From a virus, in IMG/VR virus record IMGVR_UViG_3300033052_000133, positions 1-21,257 of that record: a stretch of 21,257 nucleotides of DNA. One strand, given 5' to 3'. The notes under the pieces are model-generated. The model had not been told where the DNA came from, searched no databases, and worked only from the letters and a program-made list of their open reading frames with translations. Each line of letters starts with the position of its first letter. Position 1 is the first letter of the stretch. Positions 6,169 through 19,859 of this stretch are shown here, piece after piece. A program made the translations under genes and the position numbers.

Positions 6169-6591
6169 ATGAAGACTTTCGGAACGGTCGTTAAGATCGG
6201 CACCGCCAACCCGCCGACGACGACGCTTGACGGCGTGTTCGATGTCGGCCCGCCCAATATGTCGCGTGAAGCAAATGACGTGACGGATCACGCGAGCCCG
6301 GGCGGTGCGATGGAATTTGAGCCCGATGGCGTGTACGATCCGGGCGAGCTCGTGATCAGCATGAACTACACCAAAGGCAGCGCGACCGATACGGCTTGTC
6401 GCACGGCGTTCCTTTCTGGCGCCATGCAGTACGTGCAGTGGACTGAGAACGCAGCCAGCGGATCGGACACGCTGCAGGCTGCAGGCGTCGTCACCAGCTA
6501 TCAGGTTGATGCCCTGCCGGTGAAGGGCAAGCAGACCTGCAAGCTGACGATCAAGCTTTCGGGCGCGATCGACCCTGACGCTGGCGCCTGA
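6169..6591 (+). CDS. Major tail tube protein
   Basis: This subunit polymerises into the tail tube. Of 140 residues, the sequence has the small-tube-protein layout: N-terminal strands, an acidic loop around SREANDVTDHASPGGAMEF, the strand GELVISMNYTKGS, a region with AMQYVQWTENAASGSDTL, and a C-terminal PVKGKQTCKLTIKLSG strand. No extra C-terminal Ig-like domain is present. It has one of the clearest ribosome-binding sites here (AGGAGG, about 6 nt upstream of ATG), as expected for an abundant structural protein. It lies directly before the tail chaperone gene. Confidence 0.87.
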   Translation: MKTFGTVVKIGTANPPTTTLDGVFDVGPPNMSREANDVTDHASPGGAMEFEPDGVYDPGELVISMNYTKGSATDTACRTAFLSGAMQYVQWTENAASGSDTLQAAGVVTSYQVDALPVKGKQTCKLTIKLSGAIDPDAGA

Positions 6592-6593
6592 TC

Positions 6594-6959
6594 GTGTCGG
6601 TAGCGCTGAAAGGCGAAGCTGAGTTCGATCTGGACGGCAGGCAGGTTAAGCTTGTCGCCAATGTCACTGTCCTGCTGAAGGCAGAGCAGGAAACCGGGTT
6701 CGGCATCTTCGAGCTGCTTGGCCGGGCTAACACGCACCTTTGGGTGATGGCTTCGCTCCTACGTCACCAGATCGTCGCTGGTGGCGGCGAGGAGATGACG
6801 CTGGAACGTGCATCGGAAGTAGTGCTGCAGGAAGACGCCGCATCAAAGGCTGTCCTGGTGGCGCTTGCCGGCGCACTACCTGCTGTGACGAAGGAAGGTG
6901 ATAAAAACCCTCCGAAGGCGGCAAGGCGGAAGAGCGGTGGGACTGGGACGAAGTCCTGA
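6594..6959 (+). CDS. Tail assembly chaperone, upstream frame (gpG / GTA gp10-like)
   Basis: This chaperone keeps the tape measure soluble during tail assembly. It has 121 residues starting at GTG, 2 bp after the tail-tube stop. The opening ALKGEAEFDLDGRQVKLVANVTVLLKAEQETGFGIFELLGR matches the GTA gp10-type family (strands followed by a helix and then ELLGR). The C-terminus becomes Lys/Arg/Gly-rich (KNPPKAARRKSGGTGTKS), the low-information end expected after a frameshift site. The -1 frame is open from 6905 past the 0-frame stop and encodes a conserved second chaperone domain, so a longer fused product of about 212 residues is likely made as well. Confidence 0.83.
   Translation: MSVALKGEAEFDLDGRQVKLVANVTVLLKAEQETGFGIFELLGRANTHLWVMASLLRHQIVAGGGEEMTLERASEVVLQEDAASKAVLVALAGALPAVTKEGDKNPPKAARRKSGGTGTKS
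6902..6908 (+). other. Candidate -1 ribosomal frameshift site (T AAA AAC)
   Basis: The 0-frame codons GAT AAA AAC give the heptamer T-AAA-AAC. The -1 frame has two stops (TGA TAA, 6899-6904) just before it and none after, so any slip must occur between about 6902 and the 0-frame stop at 6957. The A5 run is the only slippery-looking sequence there. It is imperfect, because the first base is T instead of A and P-site re-pairing would be weak. Confidence 0.45.
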
Positions 6960-7231
6960 TTGGTTGGTGCGAGGCCGGTCAGGATCCTGACCGGTTTTGG
7001 CACCAGACACCGCGCACTATCCTTGCCGCCATCAGAGGCTATCGCCGGCGCAGAGCGTGGGCCGTCTGGCACGGTGAACTGCTGAGCCGCGTACAGCGCA
7101 TGCCATCCCTACGTGACTTGGAAGGTGAGCCCGACGAGGAAGTCGACGAGGAAGCAGCTGCCGAGGCACGGCTTGATCGGCTTCGTCTTTGGAAGGCTGC
7201 TCTTCGAGCCTCCAAGACAAAGTCAGCCTGA
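6905..7231 (+). CDS. Tail assembly chaperone, downstream frame (gpT-like), reached by -1 frameshift
   Basis: In the -1 frame relative to the previous gene, an open stretch encodes the domain starting EERWDWDEVLIGWCEAGQDP, followed by DRFWHQTPRTILAAIRGY, then a WAVWHGELLSRVQRMPSLRDL segment and a charged C-terminal helix. The last pattern (Trp-x-x-Trp-His, then a basic MPSL) matches the gpT-like half of phage tail chaperones. There is no ATG, GTG or TTG in this frame before 7100, after the conserved N-terminal half. It therefore must be translated as a fusion with the upstream chaperone; slipping after AAC at 6906-6908 gives a 212-residue product. Coordinates here cover the open frame, not an independent gene. 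Confidence 0.72.
   Translation, partial: KPSEGGKAEERWDWDEVLIGWCEAGQDPDRFWHQTPRTILAAIRGYRRRRAWAVWHGELLSRVQRMPSLRDLEGEPDEEVDEEAAAEARLDRLRLWKAALRASKTKSA
6975..6994. repeat. Perfect 20-bp palindrome followed by TTTT
   Basis: CCGGTCAGGATCCTGACCGG reads identically on both strands. As RNA it folds into an 8-bp stem with a GATC loop, followed by TTTT. It lies 16 bp after the stop of the upstream chaperone frame and inside the downstream frame. It may be a pause or terminator-like element, or a stimulator of frameshifting, although it is far from the candidate slippery site. Confidence 0.6.
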
Positions 7232-7232
7232 C

Positions 7233-7547
7233 CTAAAGGCAAGGGTCCCAGCGATGGAACCCGAAAGCTAACGCTCCTTGTTTTCGCAACTCCAGATGCG
7301 TGCCGGTGCCGCGAGTTTCAATTGTGACGATTCCCAGTGTCACGCCGCGGCCGTTATCCATAAGAAAGCCGGTGCGACCGTCAGGCAACGTAATTGGGGC
7401 GGTAGCCAGTTCTAGCTGCAAACAGCGACTGACAACGTCGATTGGCTTGTCGCTATCTGCAGTTCGAGCGGGAGCCTTGCTGCTGATTTCGGATGCAGTG
7501 GCGCATCCTGTGAGACTCAAAAGCATGGCGATTGCTATGCAGCGCAT
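7233..7547 (-). CDS. Small outer-membrane-type lipoprotein (accessory gene)
   Basis: A 104-residue protein is encoded on the strand opposite the tail genes, in the 376-bp gap between the tail chaperone and the tape measure. It begins with a short hydrophobic signal MRCIAIAMLLSLTGC containing a lipobox (LTGC, Cys15), and Ala at the next position favours outer-membrane sorting. The mature part has the segment LPDGRTGFLMDNGRGVTLGIV, suggesting a small beta domain. A ribosome-binding site GAGGAAG precedes the ATG. Its stop lies 1 bp from the chaperone stop. No family is recognised. Single-gene insertions encoding lipoproteins are known in phages (Bor, superinfection-exclusion lipoproteins), which is the best model, but the role is inferred. 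No clear promoter could be seen. Confidence 0.68.
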   Translation of the reverse strand: MRCIAIAMLLSLTGCATASEISSKAPARTADSDKPIDVVSRCLQLELATAPITLPDGRTGFLMDNGRGVTLGIVTIETRGTGTHLELRKQGALAFGFHRWDPCL

Positions 7548-7607: not shown

Positions 7608-9497
7608 ATGAGCGAGATGATTGGCCGCCTGCGCGTTGCGCTGGGGCTTGAAACGGCTGCGTTCGAGAAGGGCGCGCGGCGTGCGGGTGCTGAGGTCGAA
7701 GCGCTGGGAAGCCGTGCCGAAAAGGCCGGTTATAAGATCGGCAGCACGGCAAAGGCGATCTATACCACGGCAGCAGCCTTCGCGTCCGGGCAAATTATCA
7801 GCACGCTGCGTTCGGTAGTAGATGAAAGCATCCGCTATGCAGAATCCATTGGTCAGCTTTCCAAATTGGCCAACGCCAGTACCGAGGAGTTCCAGCGCGC
7901 GGCATATGCCGCGAAGTCTGTTGGTATCGAGTCGGAGAAATTGGCCGACATCTACAAGGACGTAAACGACAAGGTTGGCGAATTCCTGCAGACCGGCGGC
8001 GGCGAACTGAAGGACTTCTTCGACGTGATTGGCCCCAAGGTGGGCGTCACAGCCGAGCAGTTCCGCAATCTGTCGGGGCCGCAGGCGCTGCAGCTTTACG
8101 TTTCAAGCTTGCAGAAGGCCGGGGTAAACCAGCAGGAGATGACCTTCTATATGGAGGCCATTGCCGACGAGGCTTCAGCGCTGGCACCGATCCTACGCGA
8201 CGGCGGGCAGAGTTTTAATCAGCTGGGAGACGAAGCCGAAAAGGCAGGCTTGGTGCTGGCAAATGGCGACATCTCGCGAGTAGGCGAGACGGCAGCCAAG
8301 CTGCGTGAATTGAATTCCGCGCTACAGGTACGCCTTGCGAATTTCGTGGTCGAGAACTCGGCCGTGATTATCTCGCTGGCCAATGCCCTCGACACTGTGG
8401 CGAGGGCGGCGATGAACGCAGTCAACGCCTATCGCCGGTTTAAGCTTCAGCAAGGGCTTGGGCTGGCCGAAAACACTGCTAACGGCTTCCTGAGCAGCCC
8501 GGCGCAGAAGGCAGATGCGCGGCGGAAAGCTGACCAGTTCCGGTACGAGATCGCGAAGATCGACGGAAAAGTCGATACTAAAGGCAGTTTCCGTGATTAC
8601 AGCATCACGGGCGTTCCAGAGCTGCGCAACACGAACACGGCATTCGTGCCGGCCAACTTCAAGGCAGACAGCAAGAAAACGGGTGGCGGGAGCAGCCGTT
8701 CAGGCGGCGGCGTCAGCGCGGCCAAAAAGGCAGCTGATGAATTCGACCGCAAATTGAATGACCTGCAGGATAGACTTTATCCAGAAGTTGAGGCCTTGCG
8801 GAAGTATCGAGAAGAGCTCGACCTGATTGCCAAAGCCTTCGAGCGCGGCAAGATCACTGCTGATCAAGCTGCGGAAGCGCGCAAGCGCCTAGCCTTCGAG
8901 GGCTACACTGCCAATAGCATTGTTGGCGAGATCATGGCTGATGATAAGCCAAAGGTGGATGTGGACGCCATCGGGGAAGGTCTCGACAACCTTTACGATC
9001 GTATGCGCGGTTTCCGAGACAAGAGTGGGGCGTTGACGGTGCAGGTGGCGAAGTCCTTTGGGGACATGGCCACTGATACTGTTGCGGCGCTCGACCGCAT
9101 GGCAAGTGCTGTACAAGGCGGGGGTGTTTTGAACATCTTGTCAGCGGTACTTCAGATGGGGTTACAGCTTGGCAGCATTGGCGCTTTTGGATCGAAGATC
9201 GCAACCAACATCAACACGCCTCGGCGAGCGTGGGGTGGTCCTGTAAATGCAGGGCAGATGTACATGGTTGGCGAACGCGGCCCTGAAATGTTCGTCGCCG
9301 GCAACAATGGTCATATCGTCCCGAACCATCGCTTGAGTGGCGGGAGCGGGGGCACCGTCGTAAACCAGTTCCGCGGCAATCTACTGACGCCGGAATGGTG
9401 GGCACAAATCAACGCGGGCCACGCAGTAGCTGCACAGGCTGGCGGTGAGATTGGCTATCGCAAAGTGGTGAGTAAGGGCCGGAGGCGTCTTGCATGA
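7608..9497 (+). CDS. Tail length tape measure protein
   Basis: This protein sets tail length and is ejected during infection. Of 629 residues, the N-terminus has the usual tape-measure block (RVALGLETAAFEKGARRAGAEVEALGSRAE), followed by helical segments with STEEFQRAAYAAKSVGIES and a long central region of coiled-coil character. A Gly/Ser-rich linker lies near residues 355-370 (KKTGGGSSRSGGG). The C-terminal part has the conserved loop GPVNAGQMYMVGERGPEMFV with IVPNH (about 540-570), a hallmark of these proteins. Using the usual ~0.15 nm per residue, the tail would be about 95 nm. AAGGA lies 6 nt upstream of the ATG. No peptidoglycan hydrolase domain is visible. Confidence 0.92.
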   Translation: MSEMIGRLRVALGLETAAFEKGARRAGAEVEALGSRAEKAGYKIGSTAKAIYTTAAAFASGQIISTLRSVVDESIRYAESIGQLSKLANASTEEFQRAAYAAKSVGIESEKLADIYKDVNDKVGEFLQTGGGELKDFFDVIGPKVGVTAEQFRNLSGPQALQLYVSSLQKAGVNQQEMTFYMEAIADEASALAPILRDGGQSFNQLGDEAEKAGLVLANGDISRVGETAAKLRELNSALQVRLANFVVENSAVIISLANALDTVARAAMNAVNAYRRFKLQQGLGLAENTANGFLSSPAQKADARRKADQFRYEIAKIDGKVDTKGSFRDYSITGVPELRNTNTAFVPANFKADSKKTGGGSSRSGGGVSAAKKAADEFDRKLNDLQDRLYPEVEALRKYREELDLIAKAFERGKITADQAAEARKRLAFEGYTANSIVGEIMADDKPKVDVDAIGEGLDNLYDRMRGFRDKSGALTVQVAKSFGDMATDTVAALDRMASAVQGGGVLNILSAVLQMGLQLGSIGAFGSKIATNINTPRRAWGGPVNAGQMYMVGERGPEMFVAGNNGHIVPNHRLSGGSGGTVVNQFRGNLLTPEWWAQINAGHAVAAQAGGEIGYRKVVSKGRRRLA

Positions 9498-13525: not shown

Positions 13526-15205
13526 ATGGTTTCCGTACGCTTCGGTACATCGCCGATCGTCCTGAATGTTGGCGAGAACACGGGCGAAGCCCGCCGAGCC
13601 CGCGCTGCGGCTGAAGCTGCAGCAAGCTCTGCAGCCGCGTCAGCAGCAGTCGCCGAGGCTGCTGTGGGTCCGACCTATTCCAGCACATCCGCCGGGCTTG
13701 CCGCCACTACTAGCGGTCAGAATTTCGCCGTCGACAACGGCAACAGCACTGTCACCATCTACCGCAACAACGCCGGATCAGCGGTGGCCCAGCGCACCCT
13801 TGCGACTGTGGCTTACTTCTCTGGCACAGCCGGCGCGTCACGCGTCGGCGTGGCCGGCGGCGGCACCGTCGAGTCTGAGCTTGTTGCACGCCCGAAATCG
13901 ACCGACCTTTCTGCAACGGGCGGTGCGGCCCTAATCGGCAAGGCTGACGGTGGCACGGTCCAAGATCATCTGACCGCATGGGGAACGCGCACAGTGGGCG
14001 CAGCACCAGCGGGGACCAGCACGCCCGCGCAAGTCTACCCGACCTTTAGCGCTCATTCTGGCGGCACCACTGACTACCGCGCGACCTTGTTTGGTGCGAT
14101 GCTGACCGGGGGCAGTGACTGCAGCCTGGTTGCCCTGATGAACGGCCAAAGCGAGGCACGGCACACGTCGAGCACGCTAACGTTCCAGTACGGTATCACG
14201 GGCTTCAACCGCCTTGGTCGGCTCGGTTCGACCACCGGCAACATCACGACTTCGCGCGGGGTTGAGTGGCACATTGCCAACGAAGGCAGCGGCACCATCG
14301 GCGTAGCTTTCGACTTCTACGCGCAGGACGTCGACTTGCTGGACGGCACCGGCACGATCGGCACGATGGTCGGTTTCAAGTGCGGCAACCAAGGTCACGC
14401 ATCCCGCGTGACCACGGCTGCGATCGGTTTCGACTGCGGAAACATGACGCAGGGCGCGCCGCTGACGGTCGCGTATCGGTCAGAAATGACCAGTGGTACC
14501 GGCAAGTGGGCGTTCCTTGGGGCGGGTAGTGCGCCTAGTGCGCTCGCTGGACCGCTGCGTATCGGCGATAACACCGTACCAGCACGGACGTTCGAACTGT
14601 TCGGTTCGGATGTTTGGCAGCGGTTCCAGAATGCCTCGCGCAGCTGGATCATCGGCCTTGGATCATCGGCAGACTTTCAGGTTTACGATGACACTGGGTC
14701 TACCACGCGTCTGCGCATCGCTTCGTCTGACGGATCCGTGCGGCCCGGAGCGGATAATGCGCAGACGCTTGGCAGTTCAGGGGTGCGCTGGTCGACGGTC
14801 TATGCGGCGACAGGGACGATCAACACGTCGGACGAGCGCGAGAAAGAGTTTCGCGCTGCCCCGCTGACTGCTGCCGAATTGAACGCAGCCAAGCGGATCG
14901 TCAATGAACTGGGCTTTTACCAGTGGCTCGATGGCGCGCAGTGGCACTTTGGCGTGAAAGCGCAGGAAGTGGCTCGCATCCTTATGGATGAAGGGATCGA
15001 GCAGTTGCAGGAGATTGACTTCGAACAGGGTGTGTTCGTCGAAGATCCTCCGGTGTTTGAAACTGCATTCGTCACCTTCGACACGTGGTCGGCAGACGAA
15101 GAGGTATCCGCAGGCAACCGCTTCGGCCTTCGTGTCGATCAACTCTCCCTCTTCCTGATCGCGGCGCAAGAGCAGCGGCTTGCCGCATTGGAGGCGATGT
15201 CATGA
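13526..15205 (+). CDS. Tail fibre with C-terminal S74 self-cleaving chaperone domain
   Basis: This 559-residue fibre is predicted to trimerise and to be self-cleaved. The N-terminus has an Ala-rich coiled-coil-like stretch (RARAAAEAAASSAAASAAVA), then beta-rich repeats (VGVAGGGTVESEL, GKADGGTVQDHL) and a body of Gly/Thr-rich strands. From about residue 404 the S74 intramolecular chaperone begins, with VRW and YAATGTINTSDEREK. The key residues are Ser435-Asp-Glu-Arg-Glu-Lys440; known S74 domains cleave at this serine with the nearby lysine, releasing the C-terminal ~125 residues after folding. The C-terminal helix DQLSLFLIAAQEQRLAALEAM is typical. It overlaps the next gene by 4 bp. The receptor is unknown. 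Confidence 0.9.
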   Translation: MVSVRFGTSPIVLNVGENTGEARRARAAAEAAASSAAASAAVAEAAVGPTYSSTSAGLAATTSGQNFAVDNGNSTVTIYRNNAGSAVAQRTLATVAYFSGTAGASRVGVAGGGTVESELVARPKSTDLSATGGAALIGKADGGTVQDHLTAWGTRTVGAAPAGTSTPAQVYPTFSAHSGGTTDYRATLFGAMLTGGSDCSLVALMNGQSEARHTSSTLTFQYGITGFNRLGRLGSTTGNITTSRGVEWHIANEGSGTIGVAFDFYAQDVDLLDGTGTIGTMVGFKCGNQGHASRVTTAAIGFDCGNMTQGAPLTVAYRSEMTSGTGKWAFLGAGSAPSALAGPLRIGDNTVPARTFELFGSDVWQRFQNASRSWIIGLGSSADFQVYDDTGSTTRLRIASSDGSVRPGADNAQTLGSSGVRWSTVYAATGTINTSDEREKEFRAAPLTAAELNAAKRIVNELGFYQWLDGAQWHFGVKAQEVARILMDEGIEQLQEIDFEQGVFVEDPPVFETAFVTFDTWSADEEVSAGNRFGLRVDQLSLFLIAAQEQRLAALEAMS

Positions 15206-17340: not shown

Positions 17341-17897
17341 CCGCTGCGGTGCTGATGTGGCGTCAGCCCGAACGTCTGGGCGAACTGGCATGGCGCGGGC
17401 CGGATCGCACCGTGATGCTGATGGCGGCGCGTGGGCAGACCGGGGCAATTGCGGCGGTATTCGGCGCGCCTTATCCGCTGACGGCCGAGGCCATCGACGA
17501 TGCGGGCGGCGATCCCACGGCGCGCGCTGCGGCTGCTGCGGCCTCTGGTGCTGCTGCCAATGCGCAGGATACGGCGGATGATGCGGTCGGCGCTGCTGCG
17601 GCGGCACAGGGCACTGCAAACACCGCGCTGGCATCAGCGACAACGGCACGCACATTTCTACCCGGCGCTCTGTCCGCTGGTGTGTGGCGACCTGTAACCG
17701 GCCTTCCGCGCCTGCTGCTCAACGGCACGGGCACCGTCACCATAGACGCCCGCAACCGTGCTGGGACCGTGACGACAGCGGTCTACAGCAACACGTTGGC
17801 CAGCGCCGCAAACCAGATCGACTTTCCATTCTTCGGTGAGGACGCGGTGGAGATCCGCGCCGCCTACACCGGTTCAGCTTCTGCGGAGATTGTGTGA
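17337..17897 (+). CDS. Alanine-rich fibre-like protein
   Basis: Of 186 residues, the first 40 (LMWRQPERLGELAWRGPDRT) form a small domain, followed by an Ala-rich segment (PTARAAAAAASGAAANAQDT and AAAAAQGTANTALASATT) that resembles fibre coiled coils, then a beta-rich C-terminus with LLLNGTGTVTIDARNRAGTV and FPFFGEDAVEIRAAYTG. The Ala-rich text is like the start of the S74 fibre. It overlaps both neighbours by 1-4 bp. It is likely a tail-fibre stalk or adaptor that carries the SGNH protein; this is inference from order and composition. Confidence 0.68.
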   Translation: MTAAVLMWRQPERLGELAWRGPDRTVMLMAARGQTGAIAAVFGAPYPLTAEAIDDAGGDPTARAAAAAASGAAANAQDTADDAVGAAAAAQGTANTALASATTARTFLPGALSAGVWRPVTGLPRLLLNGTGTVTIDARNRAGTVTTAVYSNTLASAANQIDFPFFGEDAVEIRAAYTGSASAEIV

Positions 17898-19042
17898 TGG
17901 CGAACGGTTATCCTGTTGAGGTTCGCGGTTATCGTTCCCTTCAAGAACTGCTTTTGCGCGAAGGAGACATTCTGCAAGGATCGGACAGCGCGCCACAAGC
18001 CACCGGTTTGACGAACGCCCCCGGCAATGTCGCAGTGGGCAGTACTGACGGATTTGGTAACCTCATCAGACCCAGCGTTGGCAGAGCGTTATTTCTTGCG
18101 AGCGTGGAAATTGGATGCACGGCAAATTTTGTCATGAGACTGCAAGTCGGGGGGCACGAAACCGGCGTGCCGGCCACGGGAGCTTCTGCGGGCCTTGGGC
18201 AACAGCCACGCATTGATCGATTCTTTATGGTCGGGCCATCGCGCTCAGGCCGCGTTGATTTGAATGTATTTCTCCGCAGTTCATCTCGCCCGGTCGCCAA
18301 TCTATTCCGTTCTAGGCTACTTGATCTTAATCCCAGCAGCCTCGATGCAGCGGGTGCGACCGTAAGTAACAGCGCCTATTTTAGTATTGGAACGACGGGA
18401 TATGCCCTGGCCGATAGTACCAACTTCGATGCCAAAAAGGTGCACCTCTTTATAGGTGACAGCATCTGGAACGGCACTGGGCCAAGCACGACAGACACCT
18501 GTATCCCGTTTCTAATAAACCAATACTATCAGAACAAGGGTATCGACTGCCGCTATATCCTGAAAGCCTACAGTGGATCGCGCAGTGATGGTCACGAACG
18601 CAAGCGCGCTTCTGGTGACTACAATTTCCCGCAGGTGGACGTGATCCATTACAACCTCGGGATGAACGATGCTGGGGTTCTAACTACCAATCAGTCGATG
18701 GCAAATGTAACTGCCATGGTGACATGGGCGCTTGCACGCTATCCCGGCGTGAAGATCATCATCTATGGCCCGACGCCAAGGCAGGATGCCAACGAAAGCG
18801 CTCTGGTTGCTCTGCGTTCTGCTGAAAGTGCCTACGTCGCTGGTCTGAACAATTCGAATGTGAAGTTCTGCGACCTTGGCAACAGCTTCGACCGCACCGT
18901 GTTCGCGAACTACGTCAGCACCGACACAAGCGGATCAGCAGTACATCCCGGCGACACAGGCTTAAGTCTGGAATGGAACGGCGGATACAATGGCAACATT
19001 GGCATCAAGGCTTGGCTGGATGCGAACTTGCTCAGGATCTGA
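17897..19042 (+). CDS. SGNH/GDSL-type hydrolase fibre protein
   Basis: This protein likely removes acetyl or similar esters from surface glycans at adsorption. From ATG 17897 (1-bp overlap) it has 381 residues: about 180 residues of beta-rich N-terminus, then an SGNH core with GDS block I (FIGDSIWNG, Ser189), block III (LGMND, Asn257), and a late block with AVHPGDTG (His350). In the usual SGNH enzyme block V is DxxH; here the position three before His350 is Ser347, so the catalytic aspartate is missing. A Ser-His dyad would still be possible. The sequence is less GC-rich than its neighbours and is the last gene of the rightward cluster, consistent with exchange of host-range genes. Confidence 0.8.
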   Translation: MANGYPVEVRGYRSLQELLLREGDILQGSDSAPQATGLTNAPGNVAVGSTDGFGNLIRPSVGRALFLASVEIGCTANFVMRLQVGGHETGVPATGASAGLGQQPRIDRFFMVGPSRSGRVDLNVFLRSSSRPVANLFRSRLLDLNPSSLDAAGATVSNSAYFSIGTTGYALADSTNFDAKKVHLFIGDSIWNGTGPSTTDTCIPFLINQYYQNKGIDCRYILKAYSGSRSDGHERKRASGDYNFPQVDVIHYNLGMNDAGVLTTNQSMANVTAMVTWALARYPGVKIIIYGPTPRQDANESALVALRSAESAYVAGLNNSNVKFCDLGNSFDRTVFANYVSTDTSGSAVHPGDTGLSLEWNGGYNGNIGIKAWLDANLLRI

Positions 19043-19121: not shown

Positions 19122-19844
19122 CTATTTGAGGTAAACGCCGTCATACTGCATTAAGCGAAGATTGCCGGGATTCCTGAAGCCTGGAACGATATCCCAAAGC
19201 TTGAACCCCTTGCTCACGAGCTCGTCATGTAGCTCGTTATTAAGACGTTGGCCTTCATACAGCGGGGTCAGGCTCATCTCGAGTTGCAGGCCAATTGCTC
19301 TTTCCTCAAGCGTCCTTTGCGCTCCGGCCAAAACTAGGTGCTCGGCGCCTTGTACGTCGATCTTGATATAAACTCTCCTGGCTTCAAACGCGGTGATTAC
19401 TTCATCCAAAGTCTTGACCGGCACCTTCAGCGTTTGTCTCGGCGCGCTGTTGGGAGCGGCTTCAATATGAGAGCTCAGCATTGGAAGCAGCGAACTACTA
19501 ACGCTGTTGGCAGCTTCATAGAAATCAACCTCGCCGTCCTCAGCGCCAAGCGCGATACGAGGTGCAACTTCCCACTGCCCGCAACCCTCCTTCTGAGCCC
19601 TCGCGCGCAGCTTTTGCCATGCGGCCGGTAGAGGTTCGAATGAAAGAATTCTGCCTGCATAACCATTTTGCACGAGTTCTGAGGCAAACCCGCCATCATT
19701 TGCGCCGATATCTAAAACGAGATCTACGCCATTCTTTTTCAGTAGTGCGGGCAGCCTTTTCCGCCAGACGGTCATCGGTTCCGCTCGAAAGACTTCAAGC
19801 CCAAACTTTGCAGCGACCCGCCGCGCTCTGTTCATGACCGACAT
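19122..19844 (-). CDS. FkbM-family methyltransferase
   Basis: A SAM-dependent O-methyltransferase probably acts on a sugar of surface polysaccharide. The N-terminal ~40 residues lead into VDLVLDIGANDGGFASEL (SAM motif I), then the strand RILSFEPLP with acidic Glu, later a block VYIKIDVQGAEHLVLAGA (Asp and Glu near 164 and 168) and the ending QYDGVYLK, all diagnostic of FkbM. ATG 19844 gives 240 residues; GTG 19847 and ATG 19835 are alternatives. It runs opposite to the late genes and has its own terminator. Next to a phage fibre that appears to act on sugar esters, it could change the receptor after lysogeny; substrate is unknown. Confidence 0.9.
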   Translation of the reverse strand: MSVMNRARRVAAKFGLEVFRAEPMTVWRKRLPALLKKNGVDLVLDIGANDGGFASELVQNGYAGRILSFEPLPAAWQKLRARAQKEGCGQWEVAPRIALGAEDGEVDFYEAANSVSSSLLPMLSSHIEAAPNSAPRQTLKVPVKTLDEVITAFEARRVYIKIDVQGAEHLVLAGAQRTLEERAIGLQLEMSLTPLYEGQRLNNELHDELVSKGFKLWDIVPGFRNPGNLRLMQYDGVYLK

Positions 19845-19859
19845 CACACTGCCCCAAAT

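Follow-up and report, generated by a model that had tools for sequence, protein, structure and literature searches.

A predicted -1 frameshift at a proline codon joining the tail assembly chaperone reading frames of an IMG/VR virus

Organization of the tail chaperone locus

This study was concerned with two overlapping reading frames in a viral DNA of 21,257 nucleotides (IMG/VR record IMGVR_UViG_3300033052_000133, positions 1 to 21,257), and this entire stretch is referred to as the window. The genes are ordered tail tube, chaperone pair and tape measure, as follows.

6169..6591, plus strand: major tail tube protein, upstream neighbour (PHROG 158, 6.6e-11)
6594..6959, plus strand: ORF1, gpG-like tail assembly chaperone (0 frame, GTG start, TGA stop at 6957-6959, 121 aa)
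6905..7231, plus strand: ORF2, gpT-like extension (-1 frame, 108 open codons)
6594..7231, plus strand: predicted gpG-T-like fusion (212 aa, formed by 106 aa of ORF1 followed by 106 aa read in the -1 frame from 6911)
7608..9497, plus strand: tape measure protein, downstream neighbour (PHROG 2854, 3.4e-77)

The frame of ORF2 is closed immediately 5' of position 6905 by TGA at 6899 and TAA at 6902, and the earliest ATG, GTG or TTG in ORF2 is an ATG at codon 66. Both observations agree with a preliminary description of the sequence, which had reported the two stop codons and the lack of a start within the first 65 codons. The same description anticipated a fusion of about 212 residues, and the computed length is exactly 212.

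Relationship of ORF1 and ORF2 to known chaperone families

ORF1 matches the Pfam family PF11836 (Phage_TAC_11, GTA gp10) with an E-value of 1.1e-6 and a score of 29.0 bits, above the curated cut-off of 27.8. The AlphaFold2 model of ORF1 has a mean pLDDT of 84 and represents a beta hairpin followed by helices, with a low-confidence tail from about residue 96 on, where the shift would fall. In BFVD this model matched phage proteins, some of which are annotated as tail assembly chaperones, and a Foldseek comparison of the model with the PDB gave no usable match.

ORF2 is a member of PHROG 19318 (1.4e-10) and is 56% identical to the ORF2 of L060, a locus in a Novosphingobium MAG. A Pfam search with the ORF2 of the window gave no match to PF09550 (Phage_TAC_6, GTA gp10.1). 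Its relatives match PF09550/TIGR02216, the GTA gp10.1-type chaperone, mostly under the cut-offs, and the ORF2 of one relative, L018, passes PF09550 with 24.9 bits against a cut-off of 23.4. A sequence match to the lambda gpG or gpT families was not found for ORF1 or ORF2. The gpT-like domain previously ascribed to ORF2 is corrected in this respect.

Junctions in related loci

When ORF1 or ORF2 was the only query against viral contigs and phage records, almost no matches were returned. The tape measure protein as query reached 57 viral and 14 genome loci, of which L060 was the closest genome locus. Genomes from the family, genus, order and class to which L060 belongs were then searched with ORF2 and alignments of it, which contributed further loci, and additional viral scans enlarged the set. 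Removal of copies left 62 loci, 61 with an ORF1/ORF2 junction and one, L080, in a single frame.

ORF2 is in the -1 frame relative to ORF1 in all 61 distinct junctions, and in 50 of these there is no ATG, GTG or TTG able to start the ORF2 domain. In the prophage locus L080 (1135-1830), both chaperone parts are fused in frame over 231 codons without a frameshift. A canonical X_XXA_AAN heptamer is present in 39 of the 61 junctions, mostly as GGGAAAC or GGGAAAG, and nearly all of these heptamers lie 75-120 nt 5' of the FW codon pair of ORF2. The heptamer of the nearest relative, L060, is inside a run of nine A's. Taken together, these observations uphold the original proposal of a tail chaperone pair expressed by a -1 frameshift, and this reading of ORF1 and ORF2, which is drawn from comparison of sequences, is well supported.

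Alignment with related phages had also been recommended in the preliminary description as a way to find conserved slippery heptamers, and it identified a second kind of site. Sixteen of the 22 junctions without X_XXA_AAN contain an in-frame C_CCT, located 76-110 nt 5' of the FW codon pair. The codon before CCT is AAC, GAC, GGC, AGC or CGC across these 16 junctions; the four AAACCCT loci are the window, L107, L121 and L131, and in the other 12 loci CCT is preceded by GAC, GGC, AGC or CGC. The base 3' of CCT is C in all 16 junctions, while C occupies 24% of codon starts. The other junctions without X_XXA_AAN include L101, L124 and L132, which have C_CCC, C_CCG and CCC_CCG, respectively, at the equivalent place, and L088, the class of which is ambiguous. 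Two more, L100 and L119, have an in-frame G_GGG_GAA and neither an A-type nor a C_CCN site; GGGGGAA has been reported for the chaperones of many SEA-PHAGES genomes (PMC10885494).

Several loci have very short overlaps, which leave little choice of slip position and thus pin the site. For example, the overlap is 16 nt in L132 (GTC CCC CCG GCC TGA), 22 nt in L111 (GCC ACG GCG GAC CCT CGG TAA) and 28 nt in L131 (GGC GAA AAC CCT CCG AAG GCG GCG TAG). In the cultured Caulobacter phage Kronos, the sole slip candidate in the overlap is AGC CCC CCG (CCCCCCG); the pair is annotated there as two genes, with ORF2 annotated from a start within the -1 frame. An ORF2 homologue was also observed in the Paenibacillus phage PG1 (L138), the homologues otherwise being found here in alphaproteobacterial phages, and its junction, GGGAAACCCG, contains both slip types at once.

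Slip site in the window

All in-frame heptamers of ORF1 were checked for the pattern XXXYYYZ. Two registers are relevant to the overlap.

6905..6911, plus strand: predicted slip heptamer A_AAC_CCT, which holds the proline tetramer C_CCT (6908-6911); the sole in-frame XXXYYYZ of ORF1
6902..6908, plus strand: T_AAA_AAC, the slip site of the preliminary description, rejected as a conserved element (absent from L107, L121 and L131)

AAACCCT begins at the first base of the open -1 frame, and T_AAA_AAC begins three bases 5' of it. The chance of one in-frame XXXYYYZ per 18-codon overlap is approximately 3%, with the rate taken from the other genes of the window. The slip site had been called non-canonical because T_AAA_AAC was the register considered; the next register, A_AAC_CCT, fits XXXYYYZ. 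It does not fit the narrower canonical form X_XXY_YYZ in which Y is A or T. A_AAC_CCT is found at the equivalent place in L107, L121 and L131, where the codon preceding AAC CCT is GTA (L107) or GAA (L131 and L121). Only A_AAC_CCT is therefore common to these loci, and T_AAA_AAC as the slip site is unsupported. The overlap thus contains a conserved in-frame slip motif, AAACCCT with its C_CCT in the window and X_XXA_AAN in relatives. Both registers yield the same chain of 212 aa with the joint peptide ...EGDKNPSEGGK..., so proteomics would show the fusion and could not settle the slip site.

Chance and kinship

In the upstream part of ORF1, C_CCT occurs 6 times in 5465 codons (0.0011 per codon), and at this background 0.37 occurrences are expected in the junction zones of the 23 loci that lack an A-type heptamer there. 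It was present in 17 of these 23, as compared with 1 of the 38 junction zones with such a heptamer (Fisher 3e-9, kinship ignored); with so much kinship among the loci, plain p-values make the association look stronger than it is. The 23 include L053, which has a heptamer that falls outside the junction zone, and the 17 include L088, in which C_CCT lies at the edge of the zone.

Kinship was considered with a tree of ORF2. Counted on well-supported branches, the C class needs at least four changes, while the best tree needs 10, and a single clade of the four AAACCCT loci was rejected (p-AU 0.009). The well-supported branches provide four independent contrasts, which are too few for a sign test; in each of them, C_CCT either follows the prediction or shows no difference. 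The C_CCT idea was recorded before L107-L133 were fetched, and the order-wide search was not chosen for that class. This search provided five new loci without an A-type heptamer (L107, L111, L114, L119 and L121), four of which have C_CCT at the junction. Some of the bases could also be kept by constraint on the proteins, as both frames are coding at the junction.

Possible stimulators and proposed mechanism

Two elements flanking the slip heptamer were identified.

6891..6902, plus strand: Shine-Dalgarno-like AAGGAAGGTGAT, a possible stimulator directly 5' of the slip heptamer
6964..7002, plus strand: strong RNA hairpin (99-nt fold, z -3.23), about 52 nt 3' of the slip site

The duplex of the upstream element with the anti-Shine-Dalgarno sequence has a calculated energy of -9.2 kcal/mol, which beats every control window in ORF1, and internal Shine-Dalgarno elements are known stimulators of frameshifting (PMC10885494). 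The core of the downstream hairpin is a perfect 20-bp palindrome, CCGGTCAGGATCCTGACCGG, at 6975-6994 within ORF2, and its distance of about 52 nt is too great for a classical stimulator. In folds of nested base pairs, the nearer 60 nt on the 3' side fold like shuffled sequences (z -0.7). A 3' hairpin beside the slip site was also considered as a general feature and is unsupported: the mean z is about -1 in both junction classes, and in these folds nothing next to the site stood out in the window.

The locus is very probably a chaperone gene of the lambda gpG/gpG-T type, in which, judging from the sequence, a minority of ribosomes would slip by -1 at the proline codon CCU to give the 212-residue fusion. 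Most ribosomes would read ORF1 through to the stop at 6959 and produce the short chaperone. The minority would slip back one base with tRNA-Pro on CCU (6909-6911), which would re-pair on CCC (6908-6910), and in the window a shift of tRNA-Asn from AAC to AAA may help. ORF2 would then be translated to complete the fusion; both the slippage and its rate are predictions. If the roles are like those in lambda, the ORF1 part would bind the tape measure protein, and tail tube subunits would be recruited by the ORF2 part. Since the codon before CCT varies among the loci, the slip need not in general involve two tRNAs. The genome carrying L107 has a tRNA-Pro(GGG), identified with both Rfam and ARAGORN, and a tRNA-Pro(GGG) is able to pair with CCU and with CCC by wobble.

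Experimental data for this motif are available from E. coli. In Sharma et al. (2014, PMC4066793), tetramers tested with the IS3 pseudoknot are ranked A_AAG, U_UUC, U_UUU, C_CCU = C_CCC, A_AAA, and shifting at C_CCU is at least four times the background. The only failures among 64 heptamers were AAACCCA, GGGCCCA and CCCGGGC, AAACCCU not being one of these three (PMC4066793). A point against the proposed slip is that C_CCU shifted weakly in E. coli and required a strong stimulator, while the sequence directly 3' of the site in the window has no conspicuous structure.

Evaluation of alternative explanations

Several other explanations were weighed against a slip at the proline codon. One of these is that AAACCCT slips as a whole heptamer by the two-tRNA rule in the window and that the other C_CCT junctions use another site or mechanism. 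AAACCCT does fit that rule, and slippage is usually more efficient at heptamers than at tetramers. However, C_CCT recurs at one place after five different codons (AAC, GAC, GGC, AGC and CGC) with a fixed C on its 3' side, and no other candidate motif was seen at the C_CCT junctions, so that this explanation is considered rather unlikely. A frameshift at T_AAA_AAC with CCT merely close by would give the same chain, and the tRNA in the A site could re-pair from AAC to AAA. The peptidyl tRNA would, however, need to re-pair on the stop triplet TAA, and the codon before AAC CCT is GTA or GAA in L107, L131 and L121. The junctions with GAC, GGC, AGC or CGC before CCT also have no A_AAN, and the list of tetramers with slippage in E. 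coli does not include A_AAC (PMC4066793). A shift in this register is thus highly improbable.

Two explanations remain. ORF2 could be a separate gene that uses a rare start (CTG at codon 18 or ATT at codon 19) or is coupled to the stop of ORF1. The Shine-Dalgarno-like stretch at 6891-6902 and the ATT that overlaps the stop region of ORF1 are in keeping with this, but no start-like codon lies at a normal spacing from that stretch, and 50 of the 61 relatives have no ATG, GTG or TTG ahead of the domain. Canonical slip heptamers at most junctions and the in-frame fusion in L080 also speak against it, and an independently started ORF2 has only a slim likelihood. A sequencing error, or a one-base deletion by which one ancestral gene is decaying, was also considered; the window is a single virus record, and a fused homologue exists in L080. 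For the layout this is refuted by cultured phages and dozens of independent genomes that have the same -1 arrangement, and a conserved protein is encoded in both frames; error or decay is accordingly regarded as extremely unlikely.

Comparison with known systems

The production of two chaperone versions by -1 slippage is common in phages. The lambda gpG/gpG-T system is well established and known to be widely conserved (PMC5009743). As in lambda, the locus in the window precedes the tape measure gene and has a short chaperone with a -1 extension, and a minority fusion is expected. It differs in that lambda has an A-type heptamer, whereas the window has C_CCU within AAACCCU, and in that no sequence match to the lambda families was found. 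The GTA proteins gp10 and gp10.1 are encoded by separate genes. They resemble the present pair in that ORF1 passes PF11836 and the ORF2 of L018 passes PF09550; in contrast, the ORF2 of the window has no start and would depend on the predicted frameshift. The alphaproteobacterial phages with GGGAAAC or GGGAAAG junctions, such as the Paracoccus phages Pthi1 and Psul1, have homologous ORF1 and ORF2 and the same slip position, but their sites are two-tRNA A-type heptamers, while that of the window is a proline site.

The C_CCU tetramer studied in E. coli has the same shift motif and direction and slips with a stimulator; as far as the accessible part of Sharma et al. (2014, PMC4066793) extends, that was a synthetic test unconnected with any tail chaperone gene. 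Phage tail genes with shift-prone proline codons are also known from Listeria phages and SPP1, which use +1 shifts at CCC_UGA or CCC_UAA (PMC5009743, PMC6316719). Those shifts are +1 at a stop codon, whereas that of the window would be -1 and upstream of the stop. A literature search, the coverage of which did not extend to the main survey (Xu et al. 2004, Mol Cell), did not find a C_CCU -1 site in phage tail chaperones.

It seems reasonably likely that alphaproteobacterial phages, mostly of Sphingomonadales, have a distinct class of -1 signal, the single-tRNA site C_CCU_C, sometimes as A_AAC_CCU or G_GGC_CCU, which has been exchanged with G_GGA_AAC several times while the fusion protein remained unchanged. 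Slip-site finders mainly seek XXXYYYZ, and in the classic rule Y is A or U (quoted in PMC10885494). Thus, the proline class would be missed, and ORF2 would be left unannotated or given a false downstream start, as in the annotation of Kronos. If true, a natural and repeatedly evolved C_CCU site would provide a clean system for one-tRNA backward slippage, and would raise the question of whether tRNA-Pro, known for forward slips, serves programmed backward slips too.

Other genes in the window

An antisense ORF on the minus strand (7233-7547) lies between ORF2 and the tape measure gene and has a lipoprotein-like start, MRCIAIAMLLSLTGCATAS. A Pfam search with this ORF gave no match, and it is probably a moron. 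L060 has an antisense ORF at the equivalent place with a similar lipoprotein-like stretch, and in the Paracoccus phage Pthi1 an antisense gene likewise lies between the chaperone and tape measure genes. Further along, the window encodes a tail fibre-like protein with a Peptidase_S74 (endosialidase chaperone) domain at 13526-15205 and, separate from it, a GDSL lipase-like protein at 17894-19042. Past the tail and lysis genes there is an FkbM-type methyltransferase on the minus strand (19122-19847; PF05050, 9e-25).
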